40,840 nucleotides of DNA from a virus, in IMG/VR virus record IMGVR_UViG_3300043446_003385, positions 1 to 40,840 of that record, one strand, 5' to 3'. Positions within the stretch are counted from its first letter, which is position 1. Every line of letters starts with the position of its first letter. Of this stretch, positions 1 through 34,140 are shown in pieces. The notes below the pieces were generated by a model that saw only the letters and a program-made list of their open reading frames with translations, made no database searches and was not told the origin of the DNA. A program made the translations under genes and the position numbers.

Positions 1-393
1 TGATGATTGTAATATATCTGATCCATACGAAATAAATTTAGTATTTATTTTTGGCAAATCTCCTATTGAAAATACTGCAGAATAATTATTTAAATATAAA
101 TTTGTAAGTTCAAAATATTGATTACCATTATATACAAATACTTTTTCAATTGGATTAATTCCAGTAAAATTAACTAAAGGATCAGCGCCTATAAAACTTC
201 TATCAAATGATAATTCTATTTGTTGTGGAGAATTTATTTGATAAGCCGATTCTACACCACCTAATACATATCTATTATCAAATGATAATTTTTTATCCAT
301 TGATAAATTTTCAATCCCATCTAATTCAATAAATTTTGAAAGATTACCATTTCCACTCAAATAATATAATTTATATAAATTTGGATCTTTCAT
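1..393 (-). CDS. Tail-tube-fold protein, distal-tail position (partial, 3' end beyond window)
   Basis: An open frame of 131 codons starts at ATG 393-391 and runs off the left edge. Its start overlaps the tape-measure stop as TAATG, so translation is probably coupled. The residues NYSAVFSIGDLPKINTKFIS line up with NYSIKINPYQPVSIQANFIS in the gene at 37023-37919, and more weakly with NYTFNASVGNLPTVSVNIEG in the tail tube protein at 9262-10419. All three therefore look like paralogues with a tail-tube-type beta fold. In siphophages the gene directly after the tape measure usually encodes the distal tail protein (Dit), which shares the tube fold, so that is the favoured role by position. The C-terminus is missing, so the function is inferred. 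Confidence 0.6.
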   Translation of the reverse strand, partial: MKDPNLYKLYYLSGNGNLSKFIELDGIENLSMDKKLSFDNRYVLGGVESAYQINSPQQIELSFDRSFIGADPLVNFTGINPIEKVFVYNGNQYFELTNLYLNNYSAVFSIGDLPKINTKFISYGSDILQSS

Positions 394-3300
394 TATCTTA
401 AAAGTCCTCCAATTCTTTTTTCATCCCTTAATACTGATAAGACAGTATCTTTAATTGTTCTGGCTAATTCTTTTTGTTTTTGAGAATCTTGTCCAGTTGA
501 AGATTCTTGAGAAGACATGCTGCTATTTGAACCTCCACTTGTTGTTACATTTATAGAAATTGAACCTATTCCACTAACTTTAGTTATTAAATCTTCTAAT
601 TTTTTTTCTAATCTAGAAATCAAATCTTCCATATCGGAATTTTTACTATTTCCAGAATTAATTTTTTGCAAATTTCCATATCCAGTTTTTTCTGCAGCTT
701 GTTTAGATATAACAAATTCTCCACCATTTAACATAGTTGGAACATTGTCTCCCATACCATTGCCAGAAATATATCCACCAGAAGCTTTTTTCTGGATTTT
801 ACTTGGTGGCATTTGATATTTAGATGTTGTAAATGGAACTAATCCATTAATATTTTGTGAATATTGAATATTGCTCCAATTTATTTTGCTTGCATTCATT
901 GGTTCATATCCACGATTTGACCAAGAATATGGTTGATTATTATACATTACTGTATTATTTGCATTTCCAATTGATTCAGAAAATGGATTTAATTTATTAC
1001 CTATTCCACCAAAGCCAGCTTTAATTGAATCCCATCCGCCTAATTTTGTATTTGCTATTGTGGCAGTATTTGTTGTGGAATATGCTTTTCCAAATTGATC
1101 ATATCCCATTGTTGCGCCTTGTATATCTGGATTAGATGGTAAAAATTCACTAGAATTAATTTGTTTCATCTGTGAATTTAAAGCTGATTGCTGGCCCGAA
1201 TTAAACGCATTACCCAAATAACTTCCTAAAAAATTCATGCCAACACCAATTGCAAATTGCAATCCAATACTTTTCCACATATTTTTTCTTTGTTCAGCTT
1301 CTGCCTTTTTCCTTTCTTCTTCCGCTTTTCTTTCTTGTTCTGCAATATAAGCTTTTTGTTTATTAGAATCTATTCCACCTAGATACAATTCAAATGCTTT
1401 ACTTTTTGCATCTGCAAATTCTTTATTTCTTAAATCATCTTGATTCCTTAAAGCATATAAAGACAAATTTGTACTACCACCCATTAAATCAATAGATGCT
1501 GAATTTGATGACGAAGATAATCTATCATATTTAGGAGTCGTAACCTCTTGAGTCGCAAATGCTAATAAATTTCGTTGACCTATAATTGCTCCAGAACCTT
1601 CTTGTCCAGGTATTAAAAATCCTTCACCTGTTCTTGTTTGTGCATTTTTCGCATAAAAATCTGTTTGAGCTTTTTTTAAAGCATACTCCTTATTTTCTTC
1701 TTTTCCAGTGTAAGAAAGATCTCCTATTAAATTACCTTGCTCATCAAAAGAATATTTTCCACTCCTTGATTGTCCATATGGACTATATTTTTGAGGATTT
1801 CTTGCATAATCAGTAACATTTAACTCTTTAGTTGGAACGAATCCACCACTAGCAAATTTTTTTAATTGTCCAGAATTTAATTTATTAAAAAAATCTTTAC
1901 CGTATGCTTGTACGGCTTTTTTATTGATTACGAATTCACCGCCCATTAACATTGATGGAACGTCATCTTTAGTTCCAGAACCACCGCTAATTAATCCACC
2001 AGAAGCGAATGCAGGCGCACCAATATTTCCAAACATATTAGTAATAGGTTGCACAATTTTATTAGCCATATTTGTCATCAATGCGTCATTTATTTTCTGT
2101 AAAAACGCCGCAGCAGCACTTAGCAAGCCATCTTTTACGGATTTGGTTCCGCTAGATATATCTTTCATGGCTTGCACCATACTATCTCTAAAATTCATTG
2201 GAATTTCTTTTCCAAGTTTATTTCCAAATGTATCAATTTCTTCACGCATCTGGTCTGCAGATTGCAACATGCCACCACCAAATGTATTTTGTTTATATTG
2301 CTCTAGTTGAGCTTTGTAAATATCTAATCTTTTTTGATCCTCTGCATTCTGAAGAGCTTGTTTTTCATTGGTCTGTCCAGGTAGTATTCCAGCAATATTT
2401 TTAATACTTTCATCGGACACTTTTTCTATATCAAATTTTTTCTTAGCTTCTGCTGCTTTATCGAACGCTTCGGTTAATTGATTTATTTTTTTATTTAATT
2501 TGACATAATAATCATCTGTTGGATCAAGATCTGGTTTATCCAAAAGAAGCGCTCTTTCTTCTTTTAATTTATTTAAATCATTTTGAATATTATTTTGTGT
2601 AACGGGAATTGGAGCATTTAAATCAGTAATTCTATTTCTTAAAATTTCTTCATTACTTTTTCCTCCTAATGATACAGATACTTTATCTGCAGCATCGGAG
2701 ACTACTTTGTAAAAATTATTACCAGCGTTTGTTACTCTATCATCAAATCCTTTAGCTTCAGTCTCCAAAGCGCTTTTTGCAATTTTGAGTAAATCTTCAT
2801 TTGATTTGGCATTAGCTACTTCTTCATATTTTCCAATATCTTTAATACCTCTTTTTTCAAGAAATGCCATTGTGTTATTTTTGCTTTGTAAAAATGAACT
2901 AGCATTTTTTTGTTGAATTTCAAAAAGTGAATTTTCATAATTTCTTTGCGCATCATAAAATTGTTTTTGCTGAGATACGATTCTATCTGGCTCTCTAACC
3001 ATAGATCTTTCAAAAGAAATATCTTTCTTTTTATTTTCTATATCTCTTAATTCTCTTCTTATATCTAATTCTTTTTGAGCTGCATTTATTTTTCCTTGCA
3101 AAAATTCTTTTTGAATTGAATATTGATAATTTTGTTGTTCAAGTATTGATTTATTTTGAGCTTCAATTGCATTTTGAAATTTTCTAGCATCAGATTGAGC
3201 TTTAATTGTATTTAAATTTTGTTGTAATATCTCTCCTTGAACTTTTAAATTTTCAACAAAAGCTTCATTTTTGAAACCTGCAGTTTCCAAAGATATAACA

Positions 3301-6300
3301 AAATCATTAAAAGAATCTTTAATTTTTTCAGTATCTTGCCCAGCATTTTTTAAATTTTCATAAAAAATATTTTTAATATTAGTGGCTTGTTCTTCCGTAA
3401 CTTGATTTCCACGATTACTTATAAATGTACTTACTTGTTCTCTGGCAGCGGAAAGAGTAGCGTCTTTAATTTCAGATCTATAGTTTTTTTCCTCTTGCAA
3501 TGATTGTAATTTAAATTCTATGTTTTGTTTTTCAGTTTCTGAAGTTGACAATAATTCTTTTCTAATAGAAAGTATAGCTTCTTCAGAAGTCATTCTTGAA
3601 GAATTAATTTTTTCAATTTGTTGATAACTTTCTAATTGTTTTTTTAATAATTCAGTTGAAAACAAAAATGACTCTCTAAAAGTTTTATCTGATGCCGCAG
3701 TTTCTTTTGCTATCTTGGAATCGGACTGTATCATGTCCGTTAGATTTTTAAAAAGTAAAGTTGGATCAGTTACTGATCTACCACCGTTAAAAACAGCTTC
3801 TATATTTTTTTTCGTTAATTCTTTAAACTTCGCAAGAGTGTCTCCAGTTTTCCCTGTTTTGTCTTCTTCCTTTTGTTGCTTTCTTATTTCTGCAAGATTT
3901 TCTTGTCTAAATAGTTGCAATTCTTTTTGTGCAACAGTAACTTGTTCTCTTATAGTTTTTTCAGTTGCTTGGCGTAATATATCTGCTTGTTTTTGATTTA
4001 ATGCATTTTGTACAGAATCTGGATTTAATTTAATATCTTCAAATTTAGTATTTATTCCAATAGCCTTATTTGATTTAAATTGCTCTTCTTTCATCTTCAT
4101 TTCAATTTGCGGCAAATATGAAGATCCAATTAAAGATGCAATACTTTTATTTCCTTCTGTTTGTAAACCTGTTGATCCGCCAGCTTTAATTAGATTTTTT
4201 TCTGCATCACTCATTGAAATAGAAAAAAGACCTCCAAAATATCTATTATATGCACCTCCTATAGATGTACCTTTTCCTAAATTTGAAACACTATTTTCAA
4301 TAGTTCTTTTTTGACTTTCAGTTAATGAAATTTGATATTTTGCTTGAGCTTGCTCAACCATTTCTAATGCAGCAGCCGTTTTTTGAGAACTACCATTTAA
4401 TGCTTCAATTGCAGAATCTAATCCTTTTATTGCTAAAGCACCCGCAGTTGCAGCAATTAAAACTGGACCTAGTGTAGCTCCAGCTAAAGCTGCCACTCCA
4501 CCTTCCGTAGCAAGAGCCGCTGCAGTTCCACCAATAACACCTTTAATATTACCACCAGCAGCATCTTTTGCTTTTTTAAAAGCAATTCCAGCATCAGTTT
4601 CTTTAAATGAAGCTTTGCCTTTAAAAGCTAAATTACTTACTAAATCACTACTTTCTTTTAAAGTATAAATTGCACTTCCAAAATCATTTATTGCTTGACC
4701 AGCTTTCTCAGCAGCAGGTCCAAATGCAGATAATGCGCCTTGAGTAAATGAAAGCATTGCTTGCCATTTTAAAATACTAAATGTAGATTCTTGAACTGAT
4801 TTTATTTCTTTCTTTTTTTGCTCGCTTAGTTCTTTTGAAGATTCAATTTCTTGCTTTTGTTTTTGTTTTTTATCGGATTCTGCAGAATTTTCAGTTAATG
4901 CTTGTGCTGGATTTTTGTTTTCTAAAGCTAAATTTATTCCTTTATTTAAATTTTCAATTGTAAATCCAAAGTTTTCTCCATTTTTTGCTGTTTGTTCTAT
5001 TGCTTTATCTAAATCACCAGTATTTTTAATTAAAGATTTAATCGCATCTTCAAATGCAGCAATTATTGCTGGATCTGTAGGTGTATTAGCTGCAAAGTTT
5101 GGAATTCTACCATTTGGTTCATCTCTTTTATTAATGACGCCTAAACCAGCTGGATTTTGAGAACCAATAAGTTTATTATCTTTAACAACTGAAATTGCAG
5201 AAAGCGGCAATCCAGATTCTAATTTTTCTCTTTGAATAGCGTCCATTAATGGACCTTGTGCAAAATTTGGAATATATCCACTAGCTGCATTTAATAAATA
5301 AATTACTTTTCTTTGACTATCGTAATTTCCCCATCTACCCAATTTTCTTAATTCAACTTCTTTATTTTTAAAATCTCTATAGAGAATTCCAGATTTTTTA
5401 TACTCTTCTATTTTTTGTAATTTTCTTTCTTCATCTAAAGACGCTTTTCTTTTTGCTTTCTCTACTCCAAGATTTTTAAAATCACTAATTCCAGATCCAG
5501 TAAATGGAGTTAAATAACTTACATCTTTACTAATTTTTCTATCCAAAAGTTGTTTATCGGCACTTCCAGTTAAATCAATATTAAATCCAGAAACATTATT
5601 ATATTTTGTAACGGCTTGAATTGCAGCATCTCTTAAAATTTTTGTCGGTTCTTTTAAACTAGATCTTCTTAAATAATTAAAACCTTTTCTTTCAAGCATT
5701 TCTTTTTTGACTTCATCCCAAACATTACCAACGCCTTTAGCTCTCCATAATCTTGGAAATATATCTTTTAATTTTTCGTATTTTATATTTTTAAAATTGC
5801 CAGAAATTAAACCAGAAATTACTTCGTCATCTTTAGTAACGGCTTGAGTGAAGCCCATGAAACCAACATCTTTACTTCTTCCTTGCGCCGAAAGTACATT
5901 AGCAAAGTTTTCTAAACTGCGTCTATCTTCTTGATTTGGAGAAAAGAATGTATTATTGCCCAAAATAGAAGCAATGAGATTATTTTCTAATAAATCATAT
6001 TTTCCAATAAATGGATTGTGTTCGCCAGCAGTTGTTCCACTAAAATCTGTACCCTTCTGTCCAGCAAAAGATGATTTCACATCTTCTTCTGACATTCCTG
6101 CATAATTAGTATTCCATCTAGAGAATGGACCAGATAATGATTGTATTTTTGCAAAGTTTGGAATATAACCTTTCGCAGCTTTAATTAATGGTATATGTTT
6201 ATAATCAATATTATTTTTTCTTAAATTAGCTTTTAATATTTTTCTAGCTATTTCAAATAAACGCGCTCTTGGTATATTACTATAATTTATAGTTGAATTT

Positions 6301-9179
6301 TTTGTTATTTTTAATTTTTTTTCTAAATCTTTATTTGCATCTTGCGGTACAGTAACTATATTTCCCTTTGCCTTACCTGGTCCAAAATTGTTATCTTTAA
6401 TTGCTGCATCTAAAGATAATTTAGCTTCACTTATTTTATATTTTCCTTTTTTAATATCGGGAGCTACTTCATTTTCAGTTAAATCAATATAATCATCATT
6501 TCTTAATAAAGCTTCAAATACTCTTCCAGCCATTACCTCTGGATATGAAGCTAAACCTTGTATTGCAAAATTAGGTATATATCCAGAAGCACTAGATTTA
6601 GCTCCACCATATTTAGAAACAAAATTATCTCTCAATGGACCTTTTCGTTTTATTTCTTCTTTGAATTTATCTACTAAACCTATACTAAGTTCTTTTGTAG
6701 AACTTTTAACTTCTACATATGGCCAATCTTTTTCTGGCAATCCATATTGTTTTGCTAGATTAGATTTTAAACCATAAATGTCGAAACTCTTTGCTTCAGA
6801 AGCTCCAGTAAAATTACCCCAGCTTTGATCTGCAAATCCCATATTTGCAGCTTTCACCATCATTTCAAAAAAGTGACCAGCGACAGTTTGATCTATAAAT
6901 TTAAACTTCTCAGAGTTCTTTAAAGCAAGCCCCATTGCGGCAGTTGGCTTTACTTTTAAAAGATCTAATTCGCTTTTTATAAAAGTTGATATTTGCGGAG
7001 AAATTGCATCATTGGCTCTTTGTATAAAGAATTCTTTTATTTGTTTTTCATTTGCTTTTACCGTATCCAAATTTTCATTTTCTCTACGATAAACATTTCC
7101 AACGTTTACTGAATCTAATTCTATTTTTCCATACTTTTGGAAAATAGATTGTAACTGAGGATCTTCCGAAAAAGTACTTAAATATTGATCGCTCAACATT
7201 TTAGAGCGAACTTTTTTAATTGATTGTTGTCCACCAATAGTTAATCCAGCTACGCCAAATTCTTCTGCGTTAAGTGCTAATGATGGTTTTTGTATTTGAG
7301 TTACGTCTGCAAAATTTGGAACATATCCCTTTGCTGCATTTTTGGGAACGTAATTTGGTATAATTGCAGTACCACCAGTTCCAGCAAAGTTTGGAATTAA
7401 TGTTTCTCTATCGTTATAAACCATCGTCCCACTTTTACCGCCACCAAGAGGAAAATTATTATCAATTTTAATTTTAGCTCCAGCTGGAGCCATTTTTCTT
7501 TCATTCTGAACTGCATCTGCAATTGGCATATACCCACTAGCAGCACCAGAAACTTTTTTGACACCTTCGCCAGAAGTTCTAATTCCACCAGAATATAAAG
7601 TTGGAGCAATCTCTTTTGAAATTGCAGACATCTTTTGCAAAAAGTTTGCTTGTTCAGAATATATACTCAATAAATATTCTGCTTGCTTAACTTTATTTCC
7701 TTCTAAATTTAAAATGTTTTGTTGAACTTGTGCGTTGCTAGTTAAAGCAGTAAATATAGCTCTCTCTAAAGATTCTTGTTCTTTTTTCTTTGAATTCAAT
7801 CCTAATTGGGATTGTAAACTTTTATTCAAGAAATCAACAAGTCCAAATAATAATTTACCGCCAAGACCAATAGCTAGAAGAAAGCCTGGTCCAGAAATAA
7901 TACCTCCAATACCTTTAACAATCGCTTTTCCTAAATTTGATCCAATAGTTTCTCCACCAGAAATTTTATCCGTAGCTCCTTCTAAAAATGAAGCTCCCTT
8001 TTCAAATAAATTTCTTAAATCATCTGATATTGCTATACTTCCTATAGTACTTGCAAACTCCATTCCAGAAGTTTTTAATCTTTGAAATGCGGCATCAGTA
8101 GTTTTTGATAATTGATCTAATTTTGCAAAAGCTTGACTACCAGCATTTTGAGATGCATTCAATGATCTTTCAAAAGTCCCATTGGCATCTGCTAAATCAT
8201 TTAAAACAGCAGCTAATTTATCAATTTGAAATCCACCACCTATTTTAATTAAAACGCTTTTTCTTGTTGCGGAATCTAAATTATTTAATTCATTTGCAAG
8301 TTTTTTTATAATTACTGTTGCTGGAAGAATATCGCCAGAAACATCATTAACGGCAATTCCCAAACTTCTTAATAAATCCAAATTTTCAGTAGATTGTACT
8401 CTTGTAAAAATTGTTTTTAAAGCGTTACCAATTACAGCTCCGCCACGCGCAGTTTTTTCTTGAAGTGTTGTAATTAAAGCTGTTAATTCATCAAAAGATA
8501 CCCCAGCCTCTTGAGCTACCGAAGCTGAACGAGAAATGCCTTCAATCAAATCTTTTGAACTAACAGCAAATTTTGTATCAACACTAGCTAATTTATTTAC
8601 GACTGCTTCGTAATCTAATCCAACTTGATTAAAAGATTGAACTGCAGCAGTTAAACCTCTAACTGACTCAGCAGCATCTAATCCAGTTGTTCTAGTTAGT
8701 ACAAGGGCGGCTTGTGCGCGTTTAAGCGATTCTTCCATGCCAGCACCTTGACGAGAAAATTCTAATGCTGCATCAGCAGCTTCTTTGAAAGATGTTCCAG
8801 TATTTCTTGCGACAGAAAAAATACCTTTTCCTAATTTATCTAAATTGGAAGCACTCTCTCCACTTGCTACAGAAATTTCTTTTAAAGTTTTTTCTACTTC
8901 GATTGAAGAAGTAACTATATTTTCAAAAGCTTTTGCAACTGCATTCAAAACGCCAACAGATGCCCCGAATGCGAGTACGCGAGCATTTGCAGCTTCCATT
9001 GATTTTGAGAACTCATCAGCTTGACCAGTAATTTTTCCTAAAGGTCTACTGATTCCCTCAATGCCTCTACCATCAATAGTTGGTCTAATTACAATTTGCG
9101 CTCGACGACCTGCATTAGCAATGTCAGATTCTAATCTAGTTGTATCTGCTGATACTGGTATTCTAATATCGTCTGCCAT
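393..9179 (-). CDS. Tail tape measure protein, 2928 aa, with embedded nuclease-like modules
   Basis: This sets tail length and is threaded inside the tail tube. Residues about 60-350 form the helical TP901/PhageMin-type core. Hydrophobic stretches lie at about 432-450 and 1546-1585. The C-terminus has two copies of the usual tape-measure motif ending GGEFVI (about residues 2411 and 2819), each preceded by ASGG. Residues 548-1363 are unusual: short GY(I/V/M)P or PNFA motifs recur about eight times, and the segments between them include two PD-(D/E)XK nuclease-like blocks (about 767-830 with D800 and E823-V-K825; about 885-922 with P907-D908 and E918-A-K920). Long charged, probably coiled-coil helices fill about 1600-2350. 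It follows the tail tube gene and a strong terminator, so it needs its own promoter. At 0.15 nm per residue the full length would correspond to a tail of about 440 nm, less if the modules do not span the tube. Confidence 0.95.
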   Translation of the reverse strand: MADDIRIPVSADTTRLESDIANAGRRAQIVIRPTIDGRGIEGISRPLGKITGQADEFSKSMEAANARVLAFGASVGVLNAVAKAFENIVTSSIEVEKTLKEISVASGESASNLDKLGKGIFSVARNTGTSFKEAADAALEFSRQGAGMEESLKRAQAALVLTRTTGLDAAESVRGLTAAVQSFNQVGLDYEAVVNKLASVDTKFAVSSKDLIEGISRSASVAQEAGVSFDELTALITTLQEKTARGGAVIGNALKTIFTRVQSTENLDLLRSLGIAVNDVSGDILPATVIIKKLANELNNLDSATRKSVLIKIGGGFQIDKLAAVLNDLADANGTFERSLNASQNAGSQAFAKLDQLSKTTDAAFQRLKTSGMEFASTIGSIAISDDLRNLFEKGASFLEGATDKISGGETIGSNLGKAIVKGIGGIISGPGFLLAIGLGGKLLFGLVDFLNKSLQSQLGLNSKKKEQESLERAIFTALTSNAQVQQNILNLEGNKVKQAEYLLSIYSEQANFLQKMSAISKEIAPTLYSGGIRTSGEGVKKVSGAASGYMPIADAVQNERKMAPAGAKIKIDNNFPLGGGKSGTMVYNDRETLIPNFAGTGGTAIIPNYVPKNAAKGYVPNFADVTQIQKPSLALNAEEFGVAGLTIGGQQSIKKVRSKMLSDQYLSTFSEDPQLQSIFQKYGKIELDSVNVGNVYRRENENLDTVKANEKQIKEFFIQRANDAISPQISTFIKSELDLLKVKPTAAMGLALKNSEKFKFIDQTVAGHFFEMMVKAANMGFADQSWGNFTGASEAKSFDIYGLKSNLAKQYGLPEKDWPYVEVKSSTKELSIGLVDKFKEEIKRKGPLRDNFVSKYGGAKSSASGYIPNFAIQGLASYPEVMAGRVFEALLRNDDYIDLTENEVAPDIKKGKYKISEAKLSLDAAIKDNNFGPGKAKGNIVTVPQDANKDLEKKLKITKNSTINYSNIPRARLFEIARKILKANLRKNNIDYKHIPLIKAAKGYIPNFAKIQSLSGPFSRWNTNYAGMSEEDVKSSFAGQKGTDFSGTTAGEHNPFIGKYDLLENNLIASILGNNTFFSPNQEDRRSLENFANVLSAQGRSKDVGFMGFTQAVTKDDEVISGLISGNFKNIKYEKLKDIFPRLWRAKGVGNVWDEVKKEMLERKGFNYLRRSSLKEPTKILRDAAIQAVTKYNNVSGFNIDLTGSADKQLLDRKISKDVSYLTPFTGSGISDFKNLGVEKAKRKASLDEERKLQKIEEYKKSGILYRDFKNKEVELRKLGRWGNYDSQRKVIYLLNAASGYIPNFAQGPLMDAIQREKLESGLPLSAISVVKDNKLIGSQNPAGLGVINKRDEPNGRIPNFAANTPTDPAIIAAFEDAIKSLIKNTGDLDKAIEQTAKNGENFGFTIENLNKGINLALENKNPAQALTENSAESDKKQKQKQEIESSKELSEQKKKEIKSVQESTFSILKWQAMLSFTQGALSAFGPAAEKAGQAINDFGSAIYTLKESSDLVSNLAFKGKASFKETDAGIAFKKAKDAAGGNIKGVIGGTAAALATEGGVAALAGATLGPVLIAATAGALAIKGLDSAIEALNGSSQKTAAALEMVEQAQAKYQISLTESQKRTIENSVSNLGKGTSIGGAYNRYFGGLFSISMSDAEKNLIKAGGSTGLQTEGNKSIASLIGSSYLPQIEMKMKEEQFKSNKAIGINTKFEDIKLNPDSVQNALNQKQADILRQATEKTIREQVTVAQKELQLFRQENLAEIRKQQKEEDKTGKTGDTLAKFKELTKKNIEAVFNGGRSVTDPTLLFKNLTDMIQSDSKIAKETAASDKTFRESFLFSTELLKKQLESYQQIEKINSSRMTSEEAILSIRKELLSTSETEKQNIEFKLQSLQEEKNYRSEIKDATLSAAREQVSTFISNRGNQVTEEQATNIKNIFYENLKNAGQDTEKIKDSFNDFVISLETAGFKNEAFVENLKVQGEILQQNLNTIKAQSDARKFQNAIEAQNKSILEQQNYQYSIQKEFLQGKINAAQKELDIRRELRDIENKKKDISFERSMVREPDRIVSQQKQFYDAQRNYENSLFEIQQKNASSFLQSKNNTMAFLEKRGIKDIGKYEEVANAKSNEDLLKIAKSALETEAKGFDDRVTNAGNNFYKVVSDAADKVSVSLGGKSNEEILRNRITDLNAPIPVTQNNIQNDLNKLKEERALLLDKPDLDPTDDYYVKLNKKINQLTEAFDKAAEAKKKFDIEKVSDESIKNIAGILPGQTNEKQALQNAEDQKRLDIYKAQLEQYKQNTFGGGMLQSADQMREEIDTFGNKLGKEIPMNFRDSMVQAMKDISSGTKSVKDGLLSAAAAFLQKINDALMTNMANKIVQPITNMFGNIGAPAFASGGLISGGSGTKDDVPSMLMGGEFVINKKAVQAYGKDFFNKLNSGQLKKFASGGFVPTKELNVTDYARNPQKYSPYGQSRSGKYSFDEQGNLIGDLSYTGKEENKEYALKKAQTDFYAKNAQTRTGEGFLIPGQEGSGAIIGQRNLLAFATQEVTTPKYDRLSSSSNSASIDLMGGSTNLSLYALRNQDDLRNKEFADAKSKAFELYLGGIDSNKQKAYIAEQERKAEEERKKAEAEQRKNMWKSIGLQFAIGVGMNFLGSYLGNAFNSGQQSALNSQMKQINSSEFLPSNPDIQGATMGYDQFGKAYSTTNTATIANTKLGGWDSIKAGFGGIGNKLNPFSESIGNANNTVMYNNQPYSWSNRGYEPMNASKINWSNIQYSQNINGLVPFTTSKYQMPPSKIQKKASGGYISGNGMGDNVPTMLNGGEFVISKQAAEKTGYGNLQKINSGNSKNSDMEDLISRLEKKLEDLITKVSGIGSISINVTTSGGSNSSMSSQESSTGQDSQKQKELARTIKDTVLSVLRDEKRIGGLLR

Positions 9180-9199
9180 GCCTTAATCCTTTTATATAG

Positions 9200-9205
9200 T
9201 TACAC
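9200..9205 (-). promoter_or_regulatory. GTGTAA box before tape measure
   Basis: GTGTAA on the minus strand follows an A/T tract and lies 20 nt before the tape-measure ATG. The AAGG in AAAAGGATTAAGGC can serve as ribosome binding site. The gap between the upstream terminator and this gene is only about 30 bp, so a promoter for the gene must lie in or overlap this stretch. The same hexamer precedes five other genes. The promoter role is inferred. Confidence 0.4.
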
Positions 9206-9211
9206 GAAAAT

Positions 9212-9242
9212 AAAAAACCCGCTCCTTGTGAGAGCGGGTTTT
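9212..9242 (-). terminator. Rho-independent terminator after tail tube gene
   Basis: A perfect 11-bp stem (AAAACCCGCTC, 9214-9224, with GAGCGGGTTTT, 9232-9242) encloses a 7-nt loop. On the minus strand it is followed by TTTTTTATTTT. It lies about 20 bp past the tail tube stop. The A/T flanks could also allow termination in the other direction. Confidence 0.92.
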
Positions 9243-9261
9243 CTAAAATATTTAATTAAAA

Positions 9262-10419
9262 TTAGTAACCCCAATTACCATCAACAGAATCAGTGTAAGA
9301 CCCCGATAAATAAACGCCATTTGAAGTATCTGTTGGACCGCCAACTTGCGTTGTAAATACTAAATCAACAGTCTTGTTAGCTCCAATACTCGAAGAGAAA
9401 GATTCACTCTTTAATTGAGAACCTTTGAATTTAAACACTAATGCATTATCAGAACCGCCTGGTTTTTTGATAGTTAAGCTGATATCTCTCTTAGAGTTAT
9501 CATTTAACATTCCAGCCAAGCTCTTTGCTTGAACTTCGTTAACAATTGCGCTTACATTTAAAGTGGCTATAATTGGGAAATCAACAACGCGAGCAAATGC
9601 AAATCTACTACCCAATCTTTCAATTGGAGTACGGGATAATGGAATTGATAAAGAAGCATTTTGAACATTCAATCCGCCATCTCCGTTTAAAACTGAGATA
9701 GGTGCGCCAGTTGCATTAGCCAAAGTATAATCTCCAAATCCTAAAGTGATATCCCCTGGACGTAAAGCTGATGTAACTGTAGTTCCAGTCGCTTCGGATG
9801 GATTTGGTAAATAACCAGTTAAAGTTAATTCAGTACCTTCAACTGGATTAATTGTTGGTGCGAGAACTAAATTTCCAGTGAAGTTTCCAATTGCTTTTCC
9901 ACTAATTGCTGAAGATTTAATATTCAAACCTTCAATATTAACTGAAACTGTTGGAAGATTTCCAACACTAGCATTAAAAGTATAATTACTTAAAAATCCA
10001 TTACCAATAGCAATTGCATTTTTACCAGAAAGTGCAGTAACTCCACCTAATGTATTTAAATCGGTTCCTTCTTCAGAAGTAACAATATAAAAATTTTGTC
10101 CACTTGATCCAGCCATTTGACCAGAAGCAAAATTACCTTCTGCTTGAGATCCAGTTTGAACATAAAATCCAAGAACTTTTTCATTATAACCATCAGTTGG
10201 ATAATAAGAAAAATCCAAAGCTACAGTTGGAGATTTAAGTACAAGAGCATCAATACGAGCGAGTTGCCCGAATTGATTTACGTCTTGACGATCAATACTA
10301 AAGTTATAGTTAGCACTTTGAACCCTTCTAAGTTGAGCGTGTTCTGTAACACCTGTAGAATTGATATTCTTACTTACATAGAGAGCTTCTGATTGGTAAA
10401 TTACGCGATTACGGGCCAT
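9262..10419 (-). CDS. Major tail tube protein, 385 aa
   Basis: This is the probable tube subunit. It lies directly upstream of the tape measure, is rich in beta-strand-type sequence, and is followed by a very strong terminator, as expected for an abundant virion protein. Visible blocks are YNFSIDRQDVNQFGQLARID (about residues 38-57), NYTFNASVGNLPTVSVNIEG, and a second-half block with SRTPIERLGSRFAFARVVDF. The last resembles NRTPIYPIGSK in the protein at 37023-37919, which supports paralogy. The start ATG is followed by ARNRVIYQSEALYVS. No clear Shine-Dalgarno sequence precedes it; the leader has TTTTCTCATTATG. A sheath is unlikely as an alternative because the protein is short and no second tube gene lies next to it. 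Confidence 0.8.
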   Translation of the reverse strand: MARNRVIYQSEALYVSKNINSTGVTEHAQLRRVQSANYNFSIDRQDVNQFGQLARIDALVLKSPTVALDFSYYPTDGYNEKVLGFYVQTGSQAEGNFASGQMAGSSGQNFYIVTSEEGTDLNTLGGVTALSGKNAIAIGNGFLSNYTFNASVGNLPTVSVNIEGLNIKSSAISGKAIGNFTGNLVLAPTINPVEGTELTLTGYLPNPSEATGTTVTSALRPGDITLGFGDYTLANATGAPISVLNGDGGLNVQNASLSIPLSRTPIERLGSRFAFARVVDFPIIATLNVSAIVNEVQAKSLAGMLNDNSKRDISLTIKKPGGSDNALVFKFKGSQLKSESFSSSIGANKTVDLVFTTQVGGPTDTSNGVYLSGSYTDSVDGNWGY

Positions 10420-10474
10420 AATGAGAAAAGTTTAATTGTATGTTTTTACAGTGTTGATAAATGTTTGTGAAATA

Positions 10475-11314
10475 TTAAGATCTATATCTGAAAGTGGATA
10501 ATGTAAAATCAATAAAACCAATATATAAATCTTTTAATAAATTTTGTTTTAATTTATCGGAAAGTTTTGATACAATTACGTCTTTAACGAAAAGATGATC
10601 TTTATAATTCTTTTTTATATCTTCGTATGAATAATATCCAGTTTTTAAAGCTCCAAATTCATTTAAAGGATGAGAATCAAAATCGCAAATTGGAATTAAT
10701 TCATTATAAGAGTCCGCAAATATAGATAAAATAGTATCCAATTCATAACTATTATTTGCAATTGCAATTGCCTTTGATTTCATCTGAGTTTCATTAAAAC
10801 CGCCAAACGCAAAAGGTTTATTTAGAGCTGTATCATTTGATAGATAAATTGCTGGAAGTTTTTGCTGATATGGGGCGTAAAATTCATGTTTATTAACCAC
10901 GCTTTGATTTATTTTCTCTTGTACGTTTAAAACGATATTTTCTTCAGTATCATTTGTAAAATAAACATTTATTGTTTTAGGTGAAAAAGCACCAGAAACA
11001 ACAGATCCAGTAGGTACAGATTTACCTATAAATCTTCCATTTTCGTAATCTAAAATATAATTTGAAGAATCAAATTGAGTAAAAGTTCCACTTATATAAA
11101 CACCACTTGGAATATATGCATTTGGAATTGAGGCATCGTATACTAGTTGTTTATATTGACTTCCAAAAGCATGATAATCATCTGGCAAACGATCATCTGC
11201 ATAATATGTAAATGTTCCAGTTTCGTTAAAAAAAGCTTCCGACTTTTTTAAAAAGAAATTCTCAAACCACAATAAATAAGATGTGGATACTTTGTGTTGA
11301 AATTGCGGTTTCAT
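10475..11314 (-). CDS. Probable tail terminator/completion protein, 279 aa
   Basis: This is a virion assembly protein placed between two connector-type genes and the tail tube, the usual slot for a tail terminator. It begins MKPQFQHKVSTSYLLWFENF and is rich in Tyr, Asn and beta-type segments such as PNAYIPSGVYISGTFTQF. The C-terminal part (about 195-279) looks helical. Its start overlaps the stop of the gene before it as TAATG. Proteins with the same opening (a tail-tip-like LWF...FFLKK helix, then an IPNA.I.SGVY..GTF strand) are recalled from other marine phages as uncharacterised tail-region proteins. The role rests mainly on position. Confidence 0.5.
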   Translation of the reverse strand: MKPQFQHKVSTSYLLWFENFFLKKSEAFFNETGTFTYYADDRLPDDYHAFGSQYKQLVYDASIPNAYIPSGVYISGTFTQFDSSNYILDYENGRFIGKSVPTGSVVSGAFSPKTINVYFTNDTEENIVLNVQEKINQSVVNKHEFYAPYQQKLPAIYLSNDTALNKPFAFGGFNETQMKSKAIAIANNSYELDTILSIFADSYNELIPICDFDSHPLNEFGALKTGYYSYEDIKKNYKDHLFVKDVIVSKLSDKLKQNLLKDLYIGFIDFTLSTFRYRS

Positions 11315-11940
11315 TATAAAATTTCTATAAATGCATCTACATCTTTTGATGCTAAAGATGAAAATTTTGTTTTATATTTTTTTAAAAGTGTGGATATATA
11401 AGATGTAGGAGTATATCTAAAATAAGATCTCGCTCTTTTTTCCGATTGGATACCAAAACCAGATCTAGAAAATTCACTACTCTTTTTTAAGAAAAGGAAA
11501 AAATTTAAACCAGATATTCCGCTTTCAATTCCCTTAGCCCAACTTCTACCTTCTTGCCAAGGCATAGGAGTTATTTGCCATATTTCTTCTGGAGTTGGCA
11601 TTGTAATATTAATAAATAAATTTCCATAACTAGTTCTGGAATCTATTTTTATTTCTTCTAGTTTTCTAAAAATTGGTTCAAGCGGCATATCGTTAGCTTC
11701 AAAACCTATAAATGTAAATAAATTACCATAACCACCTAAAGTTTGACTATAATTTCCAGATCTAACGCCTTCTGCAATTTCCTTACTTACTGGATGAGAA
11801 GCAAATTCTTGAATTAAATTAGCTTTTAGTTTTTCCGCTTTCTTAATGTAAGAAGACAACGATTTACTTTTAATTTGTTTTACCGCAAGTCTATTAGCTT
11901 GATCTTTTAAAGATTTACTTAATCGAAATTCTTTTGCCAT
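11314..11940 (-). CDS. Neck/tail-completion-type protein, 208 aa
   Basis: Basic N-terminal helices (about 1-60) are followed by a block with NLFTFIGFEAND, MPTPEEIWQITPMPWQEGRSW and a GISGLNFFLFLKK strand. The C-terminus is SYFRYTPTSYISTLLKKY. The order connector, this gene, terminator, tube, tape measure matches the head-tail joining cluster of siphophages, where an HK97 gp10-like tail completion protein is expected. Start and stop both overlap neighbours as TAATG, so the three genes 12386-10475 form a tightly coupled set. I cannot name the family from sequence alone. Confidence 0.5.
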   Translation of the reverse strand: MAKEFRLSKSLKDQANRLAVKQIKSKSLSSYIKKAEKLKANLIQEFASHPVSKEIAEGVRSGNYSQTLGGYGNLFTFIGFEANDMPLEPIFRKLEEIKIDSRTSYGNLFINITMPTPEEIWQITPMPWQEGRSWAKGIESGISGLNFFLFLKKSSEFSRSGFGIQSEKRARSYFRYTPTSYISTLLKKYKTKFSSLASKDVDAFIEIL

Positions 11941-12386
11941 TAGCTTTCAAGAGGTATTAATAAAAATTTATAATAGTGCGGGCCAAAAATTCCTTCTGGT
12001 TTTCCAGGGCTTTTTATAGCATACGTAATTCCATCAAGTTCAACTGTTTTTGCATCTTTAATATAATCATAACCATCTTTATTTACTTTTATATAAACAA
12101 CTCCTTCTGGAATTACTATTTTTTCTTGAGATGATTCTTGGTAAAAATTTGTCTGATCAAATGATTGATATTTTATTCTTGCTTTTATAGTTCTTGAGTT
12201 TTGTTCTAATTCAACTTGAGAAACCGTAGGATTTTTCTTATATAAAGCGTTATATCCTCCAGAAGTAACGAAGGAAACTTTTTTTCCTTGTTTATAAACT
12301 ACAATATCCCTAGCAAAAGTATCATGGATCATATCAACAATATCTCTTATCGCTTGTTTTTGAGAATCGCTGATTAAACTAGACAT
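11940..12386 (-). CDS. Head-closure/connector-like protein, 148 aa
   Basis: The chosen start is ATG 12386, giving MSSLISDSQKQAIRDIVDMI. An upstream in-frame TTG at 12428 would add 14 residues but overlaps the AT-rich promoter region. The N-terminal amphipathic helix is followed by FARDIVVYKQGKKVSF and mixed beta sequence ending YYKFLLIPLES. This pattern (an N-terminal helix, then a strand with xDIxVYKxGK) resembles small head-completion or stopper proteins of large phages as I recall them. The gene diverges from the plus-strand gene at 12432 with only 45 bp between starts. Its stop overlaps the next start as TAATG. Confidence 0.5.
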   Translation of the reverse strand: MSSLISDSQKQAIRDIVDMIHDTFARDIVVYKQGKKVSFVTSGGYNALYKKNPTVSQVELEQNSRTIKARIKYQSFDQTNFYQESSQEKIVIPEGVVYIKVNKDGYDYIKDAKTVELDGITYAIKSPGKPEGIFGPHYYKFLLIPLES

Positions 12387-12394
12387 ATTTAGTT

Positions 12395-12400
12395 TTACAC
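12395..12400 (-). promoter_or_regulatory. GTGTAA box before the connector gene
   Basis: GTGTAA on the minus strand is preceded by a pure A/T run with TATTATAAAAATAAAA and lies 8 nt before ATG 12386. The 45-bp divergent gap also has TATAAT on the plus strand (12410-12415) serving the opposite gene, but no -35 at normal spacing. It is the same box as at five other genes. Confidence 0.35.
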
Positions 12401-12431
12401 TTTTATTTTTATAATATAGTAGGAACAAGGT

Positions 12432-12722
12432 ATGGACGCAAAAGAATTTTTAGCCAAAAAATCAACTAAATCAATAGCATCACTATTTAAGCAATACTTA
12501 ATGCTAATTGAAGATCTAAAATTTGAACACGATCAATATAAACAAAAACTAATTAAAAATCTTCCAGAAGATTATCATCCAATCGTAAATTCAGCAGAAT
12601 ATTTCGATGATAAAAAAATGTCTTGGATTAGGAAAAGAGTTTTAGATATTGGTAATGAAGCTATGAGAAACTCAGAAAATGATTTACAAGATTTTTCTGT
12701 AAGTTTCGTATTCAAAAATTAA
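12432..12722 (+). CDS. Unknown small plus-strand protein, 96 aa
   Basis: I do not recognise a family. It has a clear ribosome binding site (AGGAACAAGG just before ATG 12432). The protein is mostly helical and charged: SLFKQYLMLIEDLKFEHDQY, then PEDYHPIVNSAEYFDDKKMSW and a helix ending in SVSFVFKN. It is the first of three plus-strand genes inside the minus-strand tail cluster, 15 bp before the chaperone-like gene. A tail assembly helper role is the best guess from context. Confidence 0.65.
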   Translation: MDAKEFLAKKSTKSIASLFKQYLMLIEDLKFEHDQYKQKLIKNLPEDYHPIVNSAEYFDDKKMSWIRKRVLDIGNEAMRNSENDLQDFSVSFVFKN

Positions 12723-12737
12723 TATAAAATAAGGAAT

Positions 12738-13490
12738 ATGGAATCAAAATATTTATATAGTTTTACAATCTTTGACGAAAAGGAATCTTTCATTGAGGAA
12801 AAAACAATCAATGAAGAAACAAAAGAAGAAACAATTGTAAAAAAGAAAACTACCGAAAAAATACCAATTGAAATCTTTTTAAAGAAGCCTTCTCGTCGTG
12901 AAATTGAAGAAGCGGATTTGGAATATAGCGTAGAGATGAGTAAATGTATTAAGAAGGGAATTCTCACTAAAGCCATGTTGGCTAAAAAGTATTCAGACAC
13001 TGGCGGAATGATGTCTGAATCCGAATCTAAAAGATTAGTAGATCTTTATAAGAAAATTTATGATTTGCAAAATGAAACAATAAGGTTGGAATCTTCCACT
13101 AAAAAGAAAGAAAACAAAGAAAAGAATGAAAAATTAATTGAAGAACTTTCTTTAGTTAGAAAAGAGATTGTAGAAATTGAATCTAATTATAGATCACTTT
13201 TTGATCATACTGCAGACTCAAAAGCTCAAAATAAAATTCTTTTGTGGTATATTTTAAATTTAACATATATTAAACAATCTGAAGATTCAGCTCCAAAAGC
13301 ATATTTTGCTGGAGAAGATTTTGAATCTAAATTAGAAAGCTTTTATAAAAAAGAAGAAGAAAAGGATGATCACTATTCCTTAATTTCTAAAAAACTTTCA
13401 ACACTAATGGCATTCTGGTTCTTTAATCAAGCTTCATCAAAAGAAGATTTTGAAGAGTTAGATAAAAAAATAGAATCTGGTGAATTATAA
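12738..13490 (+). CDS. Tail assembly chaperone-like protein, 250 aa
   Basis: A Shine-Dalgarno-like AAGGA lies just before ATG 12738. Residues 1-50 are beta-type and very charged. Then PSRREIEEADLEYSVEMSKC (51-70) and GILTKAMLAKKYSDTGG (74-90) follow, a combination I recall from proteins next to tape-measure genes in large phages. A long coiled coil covers about 100-165, and the C-terminus is helical with LSTLMAFWFFNQASS. The stop (13488-13490) overlaps the next gene's start by 11 nt, as in two-part G/GT-like chaperones, although here the strand is opposite to that of the tape measure. No database search was possible. Confidence 0.55.
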   Translation: MESKYLYSFTIFDEKESFIEEKTINEETKEETIVKKKTTEKIPIEIFLKKPSRREIEEADLEYSVEMSKCIKKGILTKAMLAKKYSDTGGMMSESESKRLVDLYKKIYDLQNETIRLESSTKKKENKEKNEKLIEELSLVRKEIVEIESNYRSLFDHTADSKAQNKILLWYILNLTYIKQSEDSAPKAYFAGEDFESKLESFYKKEEEKDDHYSLISKKLSTLMAFWFFNQASSKEDFEELDKKIESGEL

Positions 13491-14454
13491 TTCTTTAGTT
13501 TCCGATTTAGTCGAAATATTTGATGGATACAGTAAGTTTGAATTTAAAGGTGTCAAACTTTACTTGCGACATTTTTCAATTAGAGATCAATCTTTAATTG
13601 GAGATTCTTACGAAAAGTATAAAGCTATTGCTTTGAAAAGAGGTTTAGAATTAGAAGAACAAATCTTCGAAAGATTAAAAGTTGATGGCACTTGGACCGA
13701 TTCTGATGATTTAAAAATTGCTGAATTACAAACTTATGTTGATAATTTAAAAAAATCAAAAGAAAAAATCTTTCTTCCCTCGCAGAAAGATGAGCATCAA
13801 AAATTAATTGACTCTGAAGAATATAAATTAAATACACTTCTTCTTAAAAAGAAAGAATTGATTGGAGTTTCAGTAGAAGACTTTGCTAATAAAAGAGCGA
13901 ATGAAGAATTTCTAAGATATTTGATTTATGATACCAAAAATCTTAATGACCACATGTTCACAGAACATAGGTTTGGGGAATTGGATAATGAGGAATTAAA
14001 TACTTTAAATTTGGAATATTTTAAAATATCAGATAAATTCTCAGATAAGCAAATTCAAAAAATTGTCTTGCAAGATTTTTTTAACATGTATCTTTCTTCT
14101 TGCGAGAATCCACAAGTATTTTTTGGTAAGCATATTACCCAATTATCTGCTTATCAAATGAAGTTATTATTATATGGAAGAATATTTAATAATATTTTCC
14201 AATATCATGATGATATTCCTGCAGACATAAAACAAGATCCAGACGAAATCTTTAAATTTGTAGATCTCAAGAAAACTAGAGATCAATATCAAAGCAAAGT
14301 TAAAGACGATTCGACTAGTGTAATTTTTGGTGCAACAAAAGAAGATCTAGATATTTTAGATCCAGAAGCTAAACGAATTTCTCTCTCAGAAGAGATTGCA
14401 AAAAATGGTGGTTCACTAAATATGGAACAAATGATTCAATTAATGAATCAGTAA
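13480..14454 (+). CDS. Second tail assembly chaperone-like protein, 324 aa, GTG start
   Basis: The frame opens at GTG 13480 inside the end of the previous gene. An in-frame TAG at 13471-13473 limits the start, and no ATG lies nearby, so GTG with termination-reinitiation is favoured. The N-terminus (DLVEIFDGYSKFEFKGVKLY then LRHFSIRDQSLIG) is beta-type, the middle is a charged helix (about 60-120), and the C-terminus runs to KNGGSLNMEQMIQLMNQ. The size, overlap and position suggest it acts with the 250-aa protein on the tape measure. Its stop directly abuts the stop of the convergent adhesin gene with no spacer, so no terminator fits between them. Confidence 0.55.
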   Translation: MNYNSLVSDLVEIFDGYSKFEFKGVKLYLRHFSIRDQSLIGDSYEKYKAIALKRGLELEEQIFERLKVDGTWTDSDDLKIAELQTYVDNLKKSKEKIFLPSQKDEHQKLIDSEEYKLNTLLLKKKELIGVSVEDFANKRANEEFLRYLIYDTKNLNDHMFTEHRFGELDNEELNTLNLEYFKISDKFSDKQIQKIVLQDFFNMYLSSCENPQVFFGKHITQLSAYQMKLLLYGRIFNNIFQYHDDIPADIKQDPDEIFKFVDLKKTRDQYQSKVKDDSTSVIFGATKEDLDILDPEAKRISLSEEIAKNGGSLNMEQMIQLMNQ

Positions 14455-17400
14455 TTAAACTGCAACACCATTACCATCAGCCGCAGCAAATTTATATTTT
14501 TTTAATACAGTTGGATTATTTATATCGTCTATGCAATCAATTCCAACGTTATTAATTGCTGGAAATACTGATTGATTACTACTATTAACTAGTCTATATT
14601 TACCATCTACACATTTTACTGGAGTAGAATTTGTAGTTCTAGTATTTAAAGCTCCGTTAGTATAATATTTTGTAAATGTAGTTGGAGTAATTGTAGTAGC
14701 GGAGGTATTAAATAATACTGGAAAATTAGCCAAAGTTCCATATCCATTAGTAAATGTATAATATTTATTATCTGCTGCTTTTGTTGGAAATTTATAAGAT
14801 GATGATGTTACTGTAACACTATCAGCTACCAACGTACCCACTCCAGCAATTGCAAAAGTTCTAAATGTTCCATCAGAGCATGAGGTTGGCACCGCCGTAA
14901 TGGCTACCAACGTACCCACTCCAGCAGTAGCAAAAGTTCTAAATTTTGTATCAGAGCATAAGGTTGGCACCGTCGTAATGGCTACCAACGTACCCACTCC
15001 AGCAGTAGCAAAAGTTCTAAATTTTGTATCCGAACATAAAGTAGCTATTACTGTATCAGCTACCAACGTACCCGTTCCACCATTTGCAAAAGTTCTAAAT
15101 TTTGTATCCGAACATAAAGTAGCTATTACTGTATCAGCTACCAACGTACCCGTTCCAGCAGTAGCAAAAGTTCTAAATTTTCCATCAGAACATGAAGTAG
15201 GAACTGATGTAATGGCTACCAACGTACCCACTCCAGCAATTGCAAAAGTTCTAAATTTTGTATCAGAGCATAAAGTAGGAACTGTCGTAACCACTGCTAA
15301 CGTAGGCGTTCCATCAGTTGCAAAAGTTCTAAATTTTCCATCCGAACATAAAGTAGGTATTGTTATATCAGAAGCTTTTGTGCCACCTCCATTACTAAAT
15401 GTATACCAGTTTGTATCTATCGCTTGAGTAGGTGTAGTTGTATTAGCTACCATAGTTGCAACACCCGCCGCAAATGTATAAAATAGTTTATTATCAGCTT
15501 GCATTGGTGCTGTAGAACTAACGCTAGTTCCAATTCCATTAGCAATAGTAACCCATTTATAATCAAATGATCCAGATTTTGTTAAAATTGGGCGACTTAC
15601 TGTAGCTGCAGCTAAGTTATCTCCAATATAATAACTAGCACCATCCATTGGAGAAAGTTGCGGCATTTTAGTACATACGCTAAATGAACTAGCGGAATAT
15701 GCATATGCTGTCATATTTGCACTTGTATAAGACGATGCTATACCATTTGCTGCACCTAAATAATATGAATTTCCACCTCCATAAATTTTTACTGGATGAC
15801 CTAATGTATCAACATAAGAAATTGCTGATGTTGAATTTGCAGTATATAAAACTTTTAATAATGGATCGCAAACAATTGTATTTGTAAAAATTACAGCTCC
15901 AGATACTGCAGTAGAAACATAATTTACTCCAATTCCATTAGTAATTAATCGTGAGCTTACAGTAGCGCCACTAATTGAAATAGTTGGAACTGTACTATTA
16001 TAAAGTGTTCCAATACTACAAATAGAATTTGCTATTGGAGTAAATGTATAAAAATTTCCATCTTCCGCTCTTATTGGTATATTTGCAGAATTACTTCCAA
16101 CAGTATATGGATTAGATAAAATTGCAGAACCAACTCCATTACTAGTTTTTAAATAGCAAGTTGTATTTTTTAAATTTATAGCGCAAGAAGTACTTAATAA
16201 AAAATTTCCACTTCCACCAGTTCCATTTATAAATAAAGTTGATATTGTTTGAGTATTTACAGTTGCACACTTAGCTTCAATAACTAGATTAGTTGCAACT
16301 GTTGCTGGATAACTATAATTTCCACCAGAGTCAAAAATTGCATATTTTGCTTGATCGGGAATATATACTGGTAAAGTAGTAAAAATTGCATTTGGATTTT
16401 GTTTTACTCCCGAAGCATCAAAAATATAATATTTAGAATCTCCCAATGGTTTTAAAGGAGAATTAACATTTATTAATTTTGTTGCTGCAGTATTACTAGC
16501 AATATAATAATAAAATCCATCGGCAGCTAACACAGGATTAGGTGAAGCGTTTGGAGTTACTGCTCCACCCACTCCATTAGTTATAATTTTCCAATTTGCA
16601 TCAAATGTAAAAGTTGGTTTAGTTGAATTATACAATGTTCCAACGCTGCTTGCATCAAATGTATAATATAAATTATTATATCCAGTTCTTGGGGTATATG
16701 AATTTGTAGCTGGAATATTTCCAGTTGGATCTCCAACTGTATTAAAAAATTTAAAATTACCTACAGAATCTGTTGTTTCAAAAGGTATATTTGCAACAGA
16801 TACTAATTTACCCACTGAAGTTGCAGAAAAAGTTCTATATTTGTCATCATAAGATTTTACTGCTTTAGTTATTGCGTTTGTTGTATATAAATTTTTTACT
16901 CCATTAGAAAAAGTATAATAAATATTAGCCGCAGTATTATCTGCTTGAGTTGATGAATAATATGTAGGTGTTGGAATTGTAGAATTTGCTAAAGTTCCAT
17001 TGATATAAGATCCATTTTCATTTAAAAAATAATAATTTCCATCAAAAGCTTTTGTTGCGTATTTTCCCGTTAATTTAATTGAATTAGAAATTGTAGTGCA
17101 TGTTACATTTGTATAAAAATTTTTAATGGGATAATTAGCAATATCATATAAGTTTACAACTTGACTACTACTTTCATTTGCGCTTGCTTTGGTAAAAGAG
17201 CTTGCCGAACCACTAACTTTAAATTCAGTTAAAGAATTTATTATTTTAATATATCTATTTACTGGAGGATTATAATTTACATAATCATTTATTGTCCAAT
17301 AATCTGTTATTGAATTGATACTATTTCTAATTCCAGAATTATATGTATAAAAATTACCATTCTTACTATCTGCATCATCTGGATAATTATTATTTACATA

Positions 17401-33232: not shown

Positions 33233-34140
33233 AATTTATTAATAAAATATTGGACATCAGTATTCCAGATCTTTTTTCCACACTTGAGTAATTTAGGAAT
33301 GAATAACTCACTTCTTTTTCTTGAACCAGAGAATACAAATTGACAACAATCCCTAAATTCATGCTGCAATAAACGCATATTATGGAATATATAATTCATA
33401 TTGGATACATGTGCAGCTTTTTTATTATTCTTTTCCATGTCTTCTAACTTTCCTTCAATAACAACAAATATATAACAATTCATTTTTCTCGCCCTTTCCA
33501 ATTCTCTAGTAAATCTTTTTATATTATCTCTGCTGACTGTAGTTTTAAAGTCCGCCTCTGATTTTCTATCAACAAATGTATAATCAAAGCCATCTATAAT
33601 ACAATAATCACCAACATCTAACTTTTTTACTTTTTGCTTTTTAAAATATAATGGTTCTTGCTCTCTTGAATCAGTTAATATTAATAAATTAGAGTAGTCA
33701 TTGTTAAATTCGTCTGGCAACTTAGCATTAAACATTGGTTTAACACCTATCTTATCACAAGCATAAGTATAACTTAAATAATGCTTTTTATAAATATCAA
33801 TATTAGGCAATCTAGTTACATAGAGTTCAACTTCATTTGGTGCAAACTTTAAATTGCGACTTTCGATTCTAGTTGCGAGTTTATCTATTATGTAATTTTT
33901 AACAGTTTCTGGATTAGCAATATCGCACCATCTATAAACCTCATGTATACTGTTAAAGTCATGGTCAAAATAGCTTTCTTTATTTTTGAAAGGTAATAGT
34001 TCATTTGTTAATAAATTTTTACGAGCGAAATGTTTAACATAATAATCTTGCAATAGCATTCTATTATGTTTTTTTATATGAGCGTGCAACGATTTCTCTG
34101 AATCAAATTCTTCTTCACATTCTAAACAGCTAAATAACAT
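33229..34140 (-). CDS. C2H2 zinc finger-ERCC4 nuclease fusion, 303 aa
   Basis: Residues 3-25 form a textbook C2H2 finger: C5-X2-C8-X12-H21-X3-H25. Residues about 150-230 match the ERCC4/XPF nuclease core: LTDSREQEP (157-160 DSRE), LDVGDY (Asp178), and VDRKSEADF (Asp191-Arg-Lys193, Asp197) in place of the usual ERKxxxD. Such nucleases cut branched or flap DNA. The middle (about 45-145) is unassigned. The gene overlaps the preceding helix-turn-helix gene by 11 bp and terminase by 4 bp, so a role in preparing or resolving DNA for packaging is suggested. A recombination role is the alternative. Confidence 0.82.
   Translation of the reverse strand: MLFSCLECEEEFDSEKSLHAHIKKHNRMLLQDYYVKHFARKNLLTNELLPFKNKESYFDHDFNSIHEVYRWCDIANPETVKNYIIDKLATRIESRNLKFAPNEVELYVTRLPNIDIYKKHYLSYTYACDKIGVKPMFNAKLPDEFNNDYSNLLILTDSREQEPLYFKKQKVKKLDVGDYCIIDGFDYTFVDRKSEADFKTTVSRDNIKRFTRELERARKMNCYIFVVIEGKLEDMEKNNKKAAHVSNMNYIFHNMRLLQHEFRDCCQFVFSGSRKRSELFIPKLLKCGKKIWNTDVQYFINKL

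Follow-up and report, generated by a model that had tools for sequence, protein, structure and literature searches.

Introduction

Why should the tape measure protein (TMP) of a phage contain tracts that resemble nucleases? The question is raised by IMG/VR virus record IMGVR_UViG_3300043446_003385, of which positions 1 to 40,840 were analysed here (the window, 40,840 nucleotides). TMPs are usually viewed as rulers and channel formers, furnished with cell-wall enzymes at most. The TMP of the window comprises 2928 amino acids (aa) and is encoded by an open reading frame (ORF) at 393..9179 on the minus strand, the strand of all its features given below; it is identified by a PF10145 match (PhageMin_Tail domain, residues 124-315, 8235..8810; E 8.5e-28) and by many tape-measure PHROGs. 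An earlier note on this DNA had described two PD-(D/E)XK nuclease-like modules within the TMP, and every motif it quoted is found where it had been reported, within the one ORF 393-9179 (-). We find that these modules illustrate a wider feature absent from that note: across a phage clade, a slot delimited by PNFA motifs nearly always holds a domain designated N1, and what the slot contains is swapped between phages. We favour the view, at a probability of roughly 0.55, that this is a polymorphic, nuclease-centred effector slot in an ejected TMP.

A motif-bounded slot shared by an uncultured phage clade

The slot of the window lies between a conserved left flank (residues 541-624, 7308..7559), which ends in GYVPNFA at 618-624, and a conserved right flank termed D (residues 1308-1363, 5091..5258), which ends in GRIPNFA. 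The two flanks are homologues of one another (hhalign 98.5%), and the slot is therefore bounded by a repeated linker. Five G(Y/R)(I/V)PNFA motifs occur between residues 618 and 1363, starting at 618, 866, 1004, 1301 and 1357; the three internal ones, each GYIPNFA (residues 866-872, 6564..6584; 1004-1010, 6150..6170; 1301-1307, 5259..5279), divide the slot into module A (residues 625-865, 6585..7307), module B (873-1003, 6171..6563) and module C (1011-1300, 5280..6149).

Alignment of the left flank across IMG/VR recovered at least 253 viral contigs, along with one contig in a bacterial metagenome-assembled genome (MAG), and the window belongs to a large uncultured phage clade in which the TMP has, at a matching position, a slot bounded by the motif. 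The left flank is 40-52% identical to that of 26 other TMPs, and D is conserved in about 90. When IMG/VR DNA encoding GYIPNFA or GFIPNFA was sought, the matches listed were mostly long ORFs having both flanks of the window TMP. Loci were picked by the motif or the left flank, which biases the presence of those two features; N1 was never used for selection, and its occurrence, the module contents and the absence of the motif elsewhere are unbiased in this respect. At protein level the sequence separating modules is A-A/S-x-G-(Y/F)-(I/V)-P-N-F-A, and its density per 1,000 aa falls from 9.3 in the left flank to 3.4 in the slot and 3.0 in D, against 0.016 in the C-terminus and 0 in the N-terminus of the TMP. 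A DNA-level repeat or recombination site was considered as the cause of the motif and is disfavoured: synonymous sites of its codons lie near ORF codon usage (P and F somewhat higher), and conservation at the level of protein is preferred for that reason.

A tblastn search of 50,697 phage records gave no match for the modules, the whole slot of the window or two other slots, whereas the PhoH of the window, used as a control, matched 3,429 of the same records. The sole match in a bacterial genome (L215) is contig CALFSW010000038.1 of a Verrucomicrobiales MAG, which encodes a TMP with N1. This is probably a phage contig binned with the MAG, and offers at most a weak hint of the host.

N1, a nearly universal domain with a putative nuclease signature

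N1 is a domain defined here by iterated profile searches that began from one segment and recovered it in most slots; its profile, rebuilt on 209 TMPs with 183 copies, is termed N2. Leaving the window aside, 134 of the 138 distinct complete slots (97%) contain the domain. It is bordered by the motif on both sides in 161 of 183 cases, and only 2 motifs fall inside N1. Among 289 cellular genomes searched, one gave a match, namely the phage-like contig just described; the 288 others from the phylum yielded no N1.

Columns of the N1 alignment, module A included, have a mean identity of only 16%. Against this background a small set of positions hardly varies: a Gly (182/183), an acidic helix residue (183/183; E in 178, D in 5), an Asp (182/182), a D or E preceding xK (182/182), the Lys itself (179/182) and a later K or Q (179/179). 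As judged from residue conservation, this pattern is the signature of a PD-(D/E)XK active site, a superfamily in which an acidic helix residue, Asp, (D/E)xK and a later K/Q follow in the same order as in N1. Unlike known families of that group, N1 has an L...FG segment between the Asp and the (D/E)xK, and gives no profile or structural match to them.

The modules of the window

Module A contains GHFFEMM (768-774), SFDIYG (798-803) and YVEVKSS (821-827), and its putative catalytic core consists of G768, E772, D800, E823, K825 and K838 (6666..6878), the last assigned by inspection only. Scored with the N2 profile, which was built from other TMPs with A excluded, it reaches 13.9 bits (E ~4e-4), the top score among the 124 ORFs and TMP pieces of the window, and all of 5,000 shuffles fell below this value (maximum 12.6). 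The earlier N1 profile gave 12.2 bits, a score surpassed by one shuffle in 5,000. In a MAFFT alignment with 78 family members, G768, E772, D800 and K825 occupy invariant or near-invariant columns; A aligns across the whole N1 domain, including the L..(F/Y)G segment of the family, and every N1-conserved residue is present in A up to the Lys of (D/E)xK. From its profile score, whole-domain alignment and conserved columns, and from a position at which 97% of relatives hold N1, we conclude that module A is the N1 of the window, as a weak and divergent member of PD-(D/E)XK-like character. Two scans of viral contigs returned no direct relatives of A.

Module B, the second PD-(D/E)XK-like tract, contains GRVFEALL (885-892) and APDIKKGKYKISEAK (906-920), with a putative core of G885, E889, P907, D908, E918 and K920 (6420..6527). 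Its phmmer relatives (E 1e-28 to 4e-7) lie in other TMPs (L240; L197; L119, L068 and L011; L032 and L218; L223), and in L240, L197, L119 and L032 it sits beside N1. Across six aligned sequences G885, R886, F888, E889, P907, D908, E918 and K920 are invariant. On this evidence B represents a separate small family distributed among several TMP architectures. It was unmatched in a search with the N1 hidden Markov model, and profile comparison of the B family with N2 (hhalign probability 35%, P 4e-4) hints that the two are related. The order of acidic helix residue, Asp and ExK described by the earlier note is present in both modules, as E772, D800 and E823-x-K825 in A and as E889, P907-D908 and E918-x-K920 in B.

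Module C is also found in the TMPs of L187 (E 5e-11) and L129 (2e-10), beside other modules there; its neighbour in L187 is a SNase domain. Taken singly, A, B and C gave nothing relevant when scanned against Pfam and PHROGs.

Wholesale exchange of slot contents

Slots range in length from 210 to 1,369 residues, and their contents differ even between very close relatives. The TMP N-termini of L242 and L263 are 99.2% identical, and those of L047 and L262 98.4%, with no detectable similarity between the slot contents of either pair; further near-identical pairs with dissimilar slots were also found. In the swapped pairs identity stops at the first PNFA motif and returns at the last. Slot contents are thus replaced wholesale between close relatives at motif boundaries. 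Both members of each of the two pairs carry N1, and one N1 has therefore been replaced by another, very different N1. A census of phage mosaicism reported a mosaic signal in TMPs, a genuine recent case of which it could not confirm (PMC10684548); these natural pairs, with N-termini 98-99% identical and slots replaced, show such mosaicism directly.

Other occupants of the slots in the clade include domains recognised by Pfam (SNase 1.9e-9, HATPase 3.7e-5, GNAT 1.3e-4), and others that resemble, by eye, HAD phosphatases, protein kinases, P-loop proteins and ADP-ribosyltransferases (ARTs). Examples, labelled in some cases by Pfam and in some only by eye, are the Pfam SNase of L187 (aa 637-812), a GNAT-like module in L048 (aa 88-232), a GHKL ATPase-like module in L135 (aa 961-1529), ART-like modules in L146 (aa 638-850) and L103 (aa 1398-1615), and a kinase-like module in L240 (aa 1088-1260). 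A carrier that stays constant while the enzyme domains on it differ and are exchanged is the arrangement expected of polyvalent or polymorphic effectors. From aa 663 of L153 the same module sequence (KLFKAYDGGGRYVGAQNDYF...) occurs twice in a row within one slot, which suggests tandem duplication of modules.

A proposed effector slot, and competing explanations

TMPs fill the tail tube and exit from it during DNA ejection. This exit is restated in PMC13277306. A fixed slot nearly always occupied by a nuclease-like domain, with contents swapped between close relatives, suggests that these phages deliver enzymes of their own to the host together with the DNA. In the most economical account, the slot would hold cargo acting early in the infected cell, with a nuclease at its centre and optional enzymes around it. 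Situated between two related, conserved linkers, the modules, being portions of the TMP, would travel inside the tail lumen, held inactive by confinement or incomplete folding; at ejection the TMP would enter the cell with or before the genome, and the modules would then fold. The nucleases could cut host chromosome, plasmid or rival genome, while accessory modules of other clade members might modify other host targets. The PNFA motif could fasten the protein to the tube wall, be a site of proteolytic processing or act as a linker. Cargo aimed at host DNA, plasmids or rivals, as the earlier note had proposed, is plausible. The component steps differ in strength. We consider a PD-(D/E)XK fold and activity of N1 likely; delivery of slot modules into the cytoplasm, which follows from general TMP biology, seems somewhat probable; and for a target other than the own DNA of the phage the odds appear evenly balanced. 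More speculatively, and with rather less confidence than in an effector slot as such, the clade may use its TMP as a polymorphic toxin carrier, providing nearly every virion with a rapidly diversifying nuclease and optional enzymes that are freed or unfolded at PNFA motifs, with modules traded to escape countermeasures of hosts or rivals.

Several observations weigh against a nuclease-centred slot. The core expected of a PD-(D/E)XK nuclease is of the alpha/beta type and contains a mixed sheet of four strands. An AlphaFold2 model of A, computed with 78 relatives (pLDDT, the predicted local distance difference test, 80.2), presents elements in the expected order, a helix bearing E772, a strand starting after D800, a strand just before E823-x-K825 and a further helix, but it has two strands only, and the shallow alignment limits the model. 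Foldseek of this model against PDB and BFVD gave no structural match, and VIA-align with Foldseek matched only its N-terminal helices, weakly, with no nuclease or other convincing fold among the matches. For B, six sequences yielded a model with a pLDDT of 43, too poor for use. N1 has no Pfam match and no relevant PDB sequence match, also when its consensus was compared with Pfam, and hhalign of N1 with Mrr_cat, PDDEXK_3 and YraN gave no alignment, in a comparison where those controls barely align with one another. Module A is itself an outlier within N1, and the near-universality of the domain also fits a core function. The missing Pfam matches are weak counter-evidence, because the PD-(D/E)XK superfamily is known to include families that evade detection by sequence (PMC1913061, PMC1189080). 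The proposal of two nuclease-like modules thus stands at the level of residue conservation, in a large family for A and a small one for B, whereas the fold is unconfirmed by structure prediction.

The main rival would make N1 a virion nuclease with a housekeeping role on the genome of the phage itself, for instance trimming, protecting or circularising the DNA end meeting the TMP, and would leave only the extra modules as effectors. It draws on the presence of N1 in those 134 of 138 slots whatever else they contain, and on the failure to find it in the 288 other searched genomes from the phylum. We nevertheless regard it as improbable, since N1 ranks with the TMP parts that diverge most and is swapped between phages with N-termini 98-99% identical, which is not how a domain working on a conserved end of the phage DNA would be expected to behave. 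A further alternative would make N1 and B inactive nuclease folds, beads within the TMP that bind DNA or have a structural role, and a precedent exists in RecC, which contains an inactivated nuclease-like domain (PMC1185551). The near invariance of catalytic-type positions in 183 copies, interchangeable D or E before xK included, while the rest of the domain diverges, makes this quite improbable. That the motifs of the window are coincidental, A and B being just disordered or coiled TMP sequence, might be argued from the weak score of A (E ~4e-4 among 124 sequences) and its lack of a fold match; it is nonetheless highly improbable, given that A aligns over the whole domain in the position where 97% of relatives hold N1, and that the motif residues of B are invariant in six aligned TMP sequences. 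Should the slot indeed carry nuclease effectors, degradation of DNA could precede the expression of all phage genes, and the slot with its PNFA borders would constitute a natural system for loading cargo, with testable rules.

Relation to known systems

No paper describing a PNFA-bounded TMP slot was found by title and abstract, in a search whose coverage excluded most subscription journals. Analogies can be drawn with several known systems. The polyvalent proteins of phages and conjugative elements (Iyer et al. 2017, PMC5512222), proposed to be delivered together with DNA and separated by proteases, likewise string unrelated enzyme domains on one polypeptide; their carriers are dedicated large proteins, whereas in the present clade the TMP fills that role and a short repeated motif marks the domain boundaries. 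The term "tape measure" is absent from the text of that paper. Sle1 and Tme of contractile injection systems (PMC13277306, PMC11126660) resemble the slot in combining a TMP-related carrier, ejected from the tail tube, with diverse exchangeable domains. They belong to bacterial machines free of DNA and vary in a C-terminal domain, while the present slot is internal to a phage TMP and has a nearly universal nuclease-like occupant; unlike those machines, the genome of the window also encodes a terminase. An enzyme module within a TMP has a counterpart in mycobacteriophage TM4, whose TMP bears a peptidoglycan hydrolase motif (cited in PMC13277306). That module targets the cell wall, whereas the modules swapped here are nuclease-, ATPase-, acetyltransferase-, kinase- and ART-like. 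Polymorphic toxins (PMC3482391), including those of temperate phages (PMC5576092), also recombine toxin-like domains on a constant carrier; in the present case a TMP takes the part of that carrier, the domains lie internally, often more than one to a slot, and no immunity gene was identified, no search aimed at one having been made.

Genomic context of the TMP

Two giant ORFs lie elsewhere in the window, at 14455-20346 (1963 aa) and 20353-24819 (1488 aa); a PHROG scan left the former without a match and gave the latter only short matches of unknown function. The terminase large subunit (31373-33232) adjoins an ORF with an ERCC4-type nuclease match (33229-34140). Within 393-14454 of the window, the TMP stands at the opposite end of a group of genes encoding 385, 279, 208 and 162 aa. 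In L236, L248 and L240 it comes after genes of 95, 251 and 327 aa, the gene order around the TMP being rearranged relative to the window. Seven genes neighbouring the window TMP each have between 76 and 193 matching ORFs in the loci of the clade.

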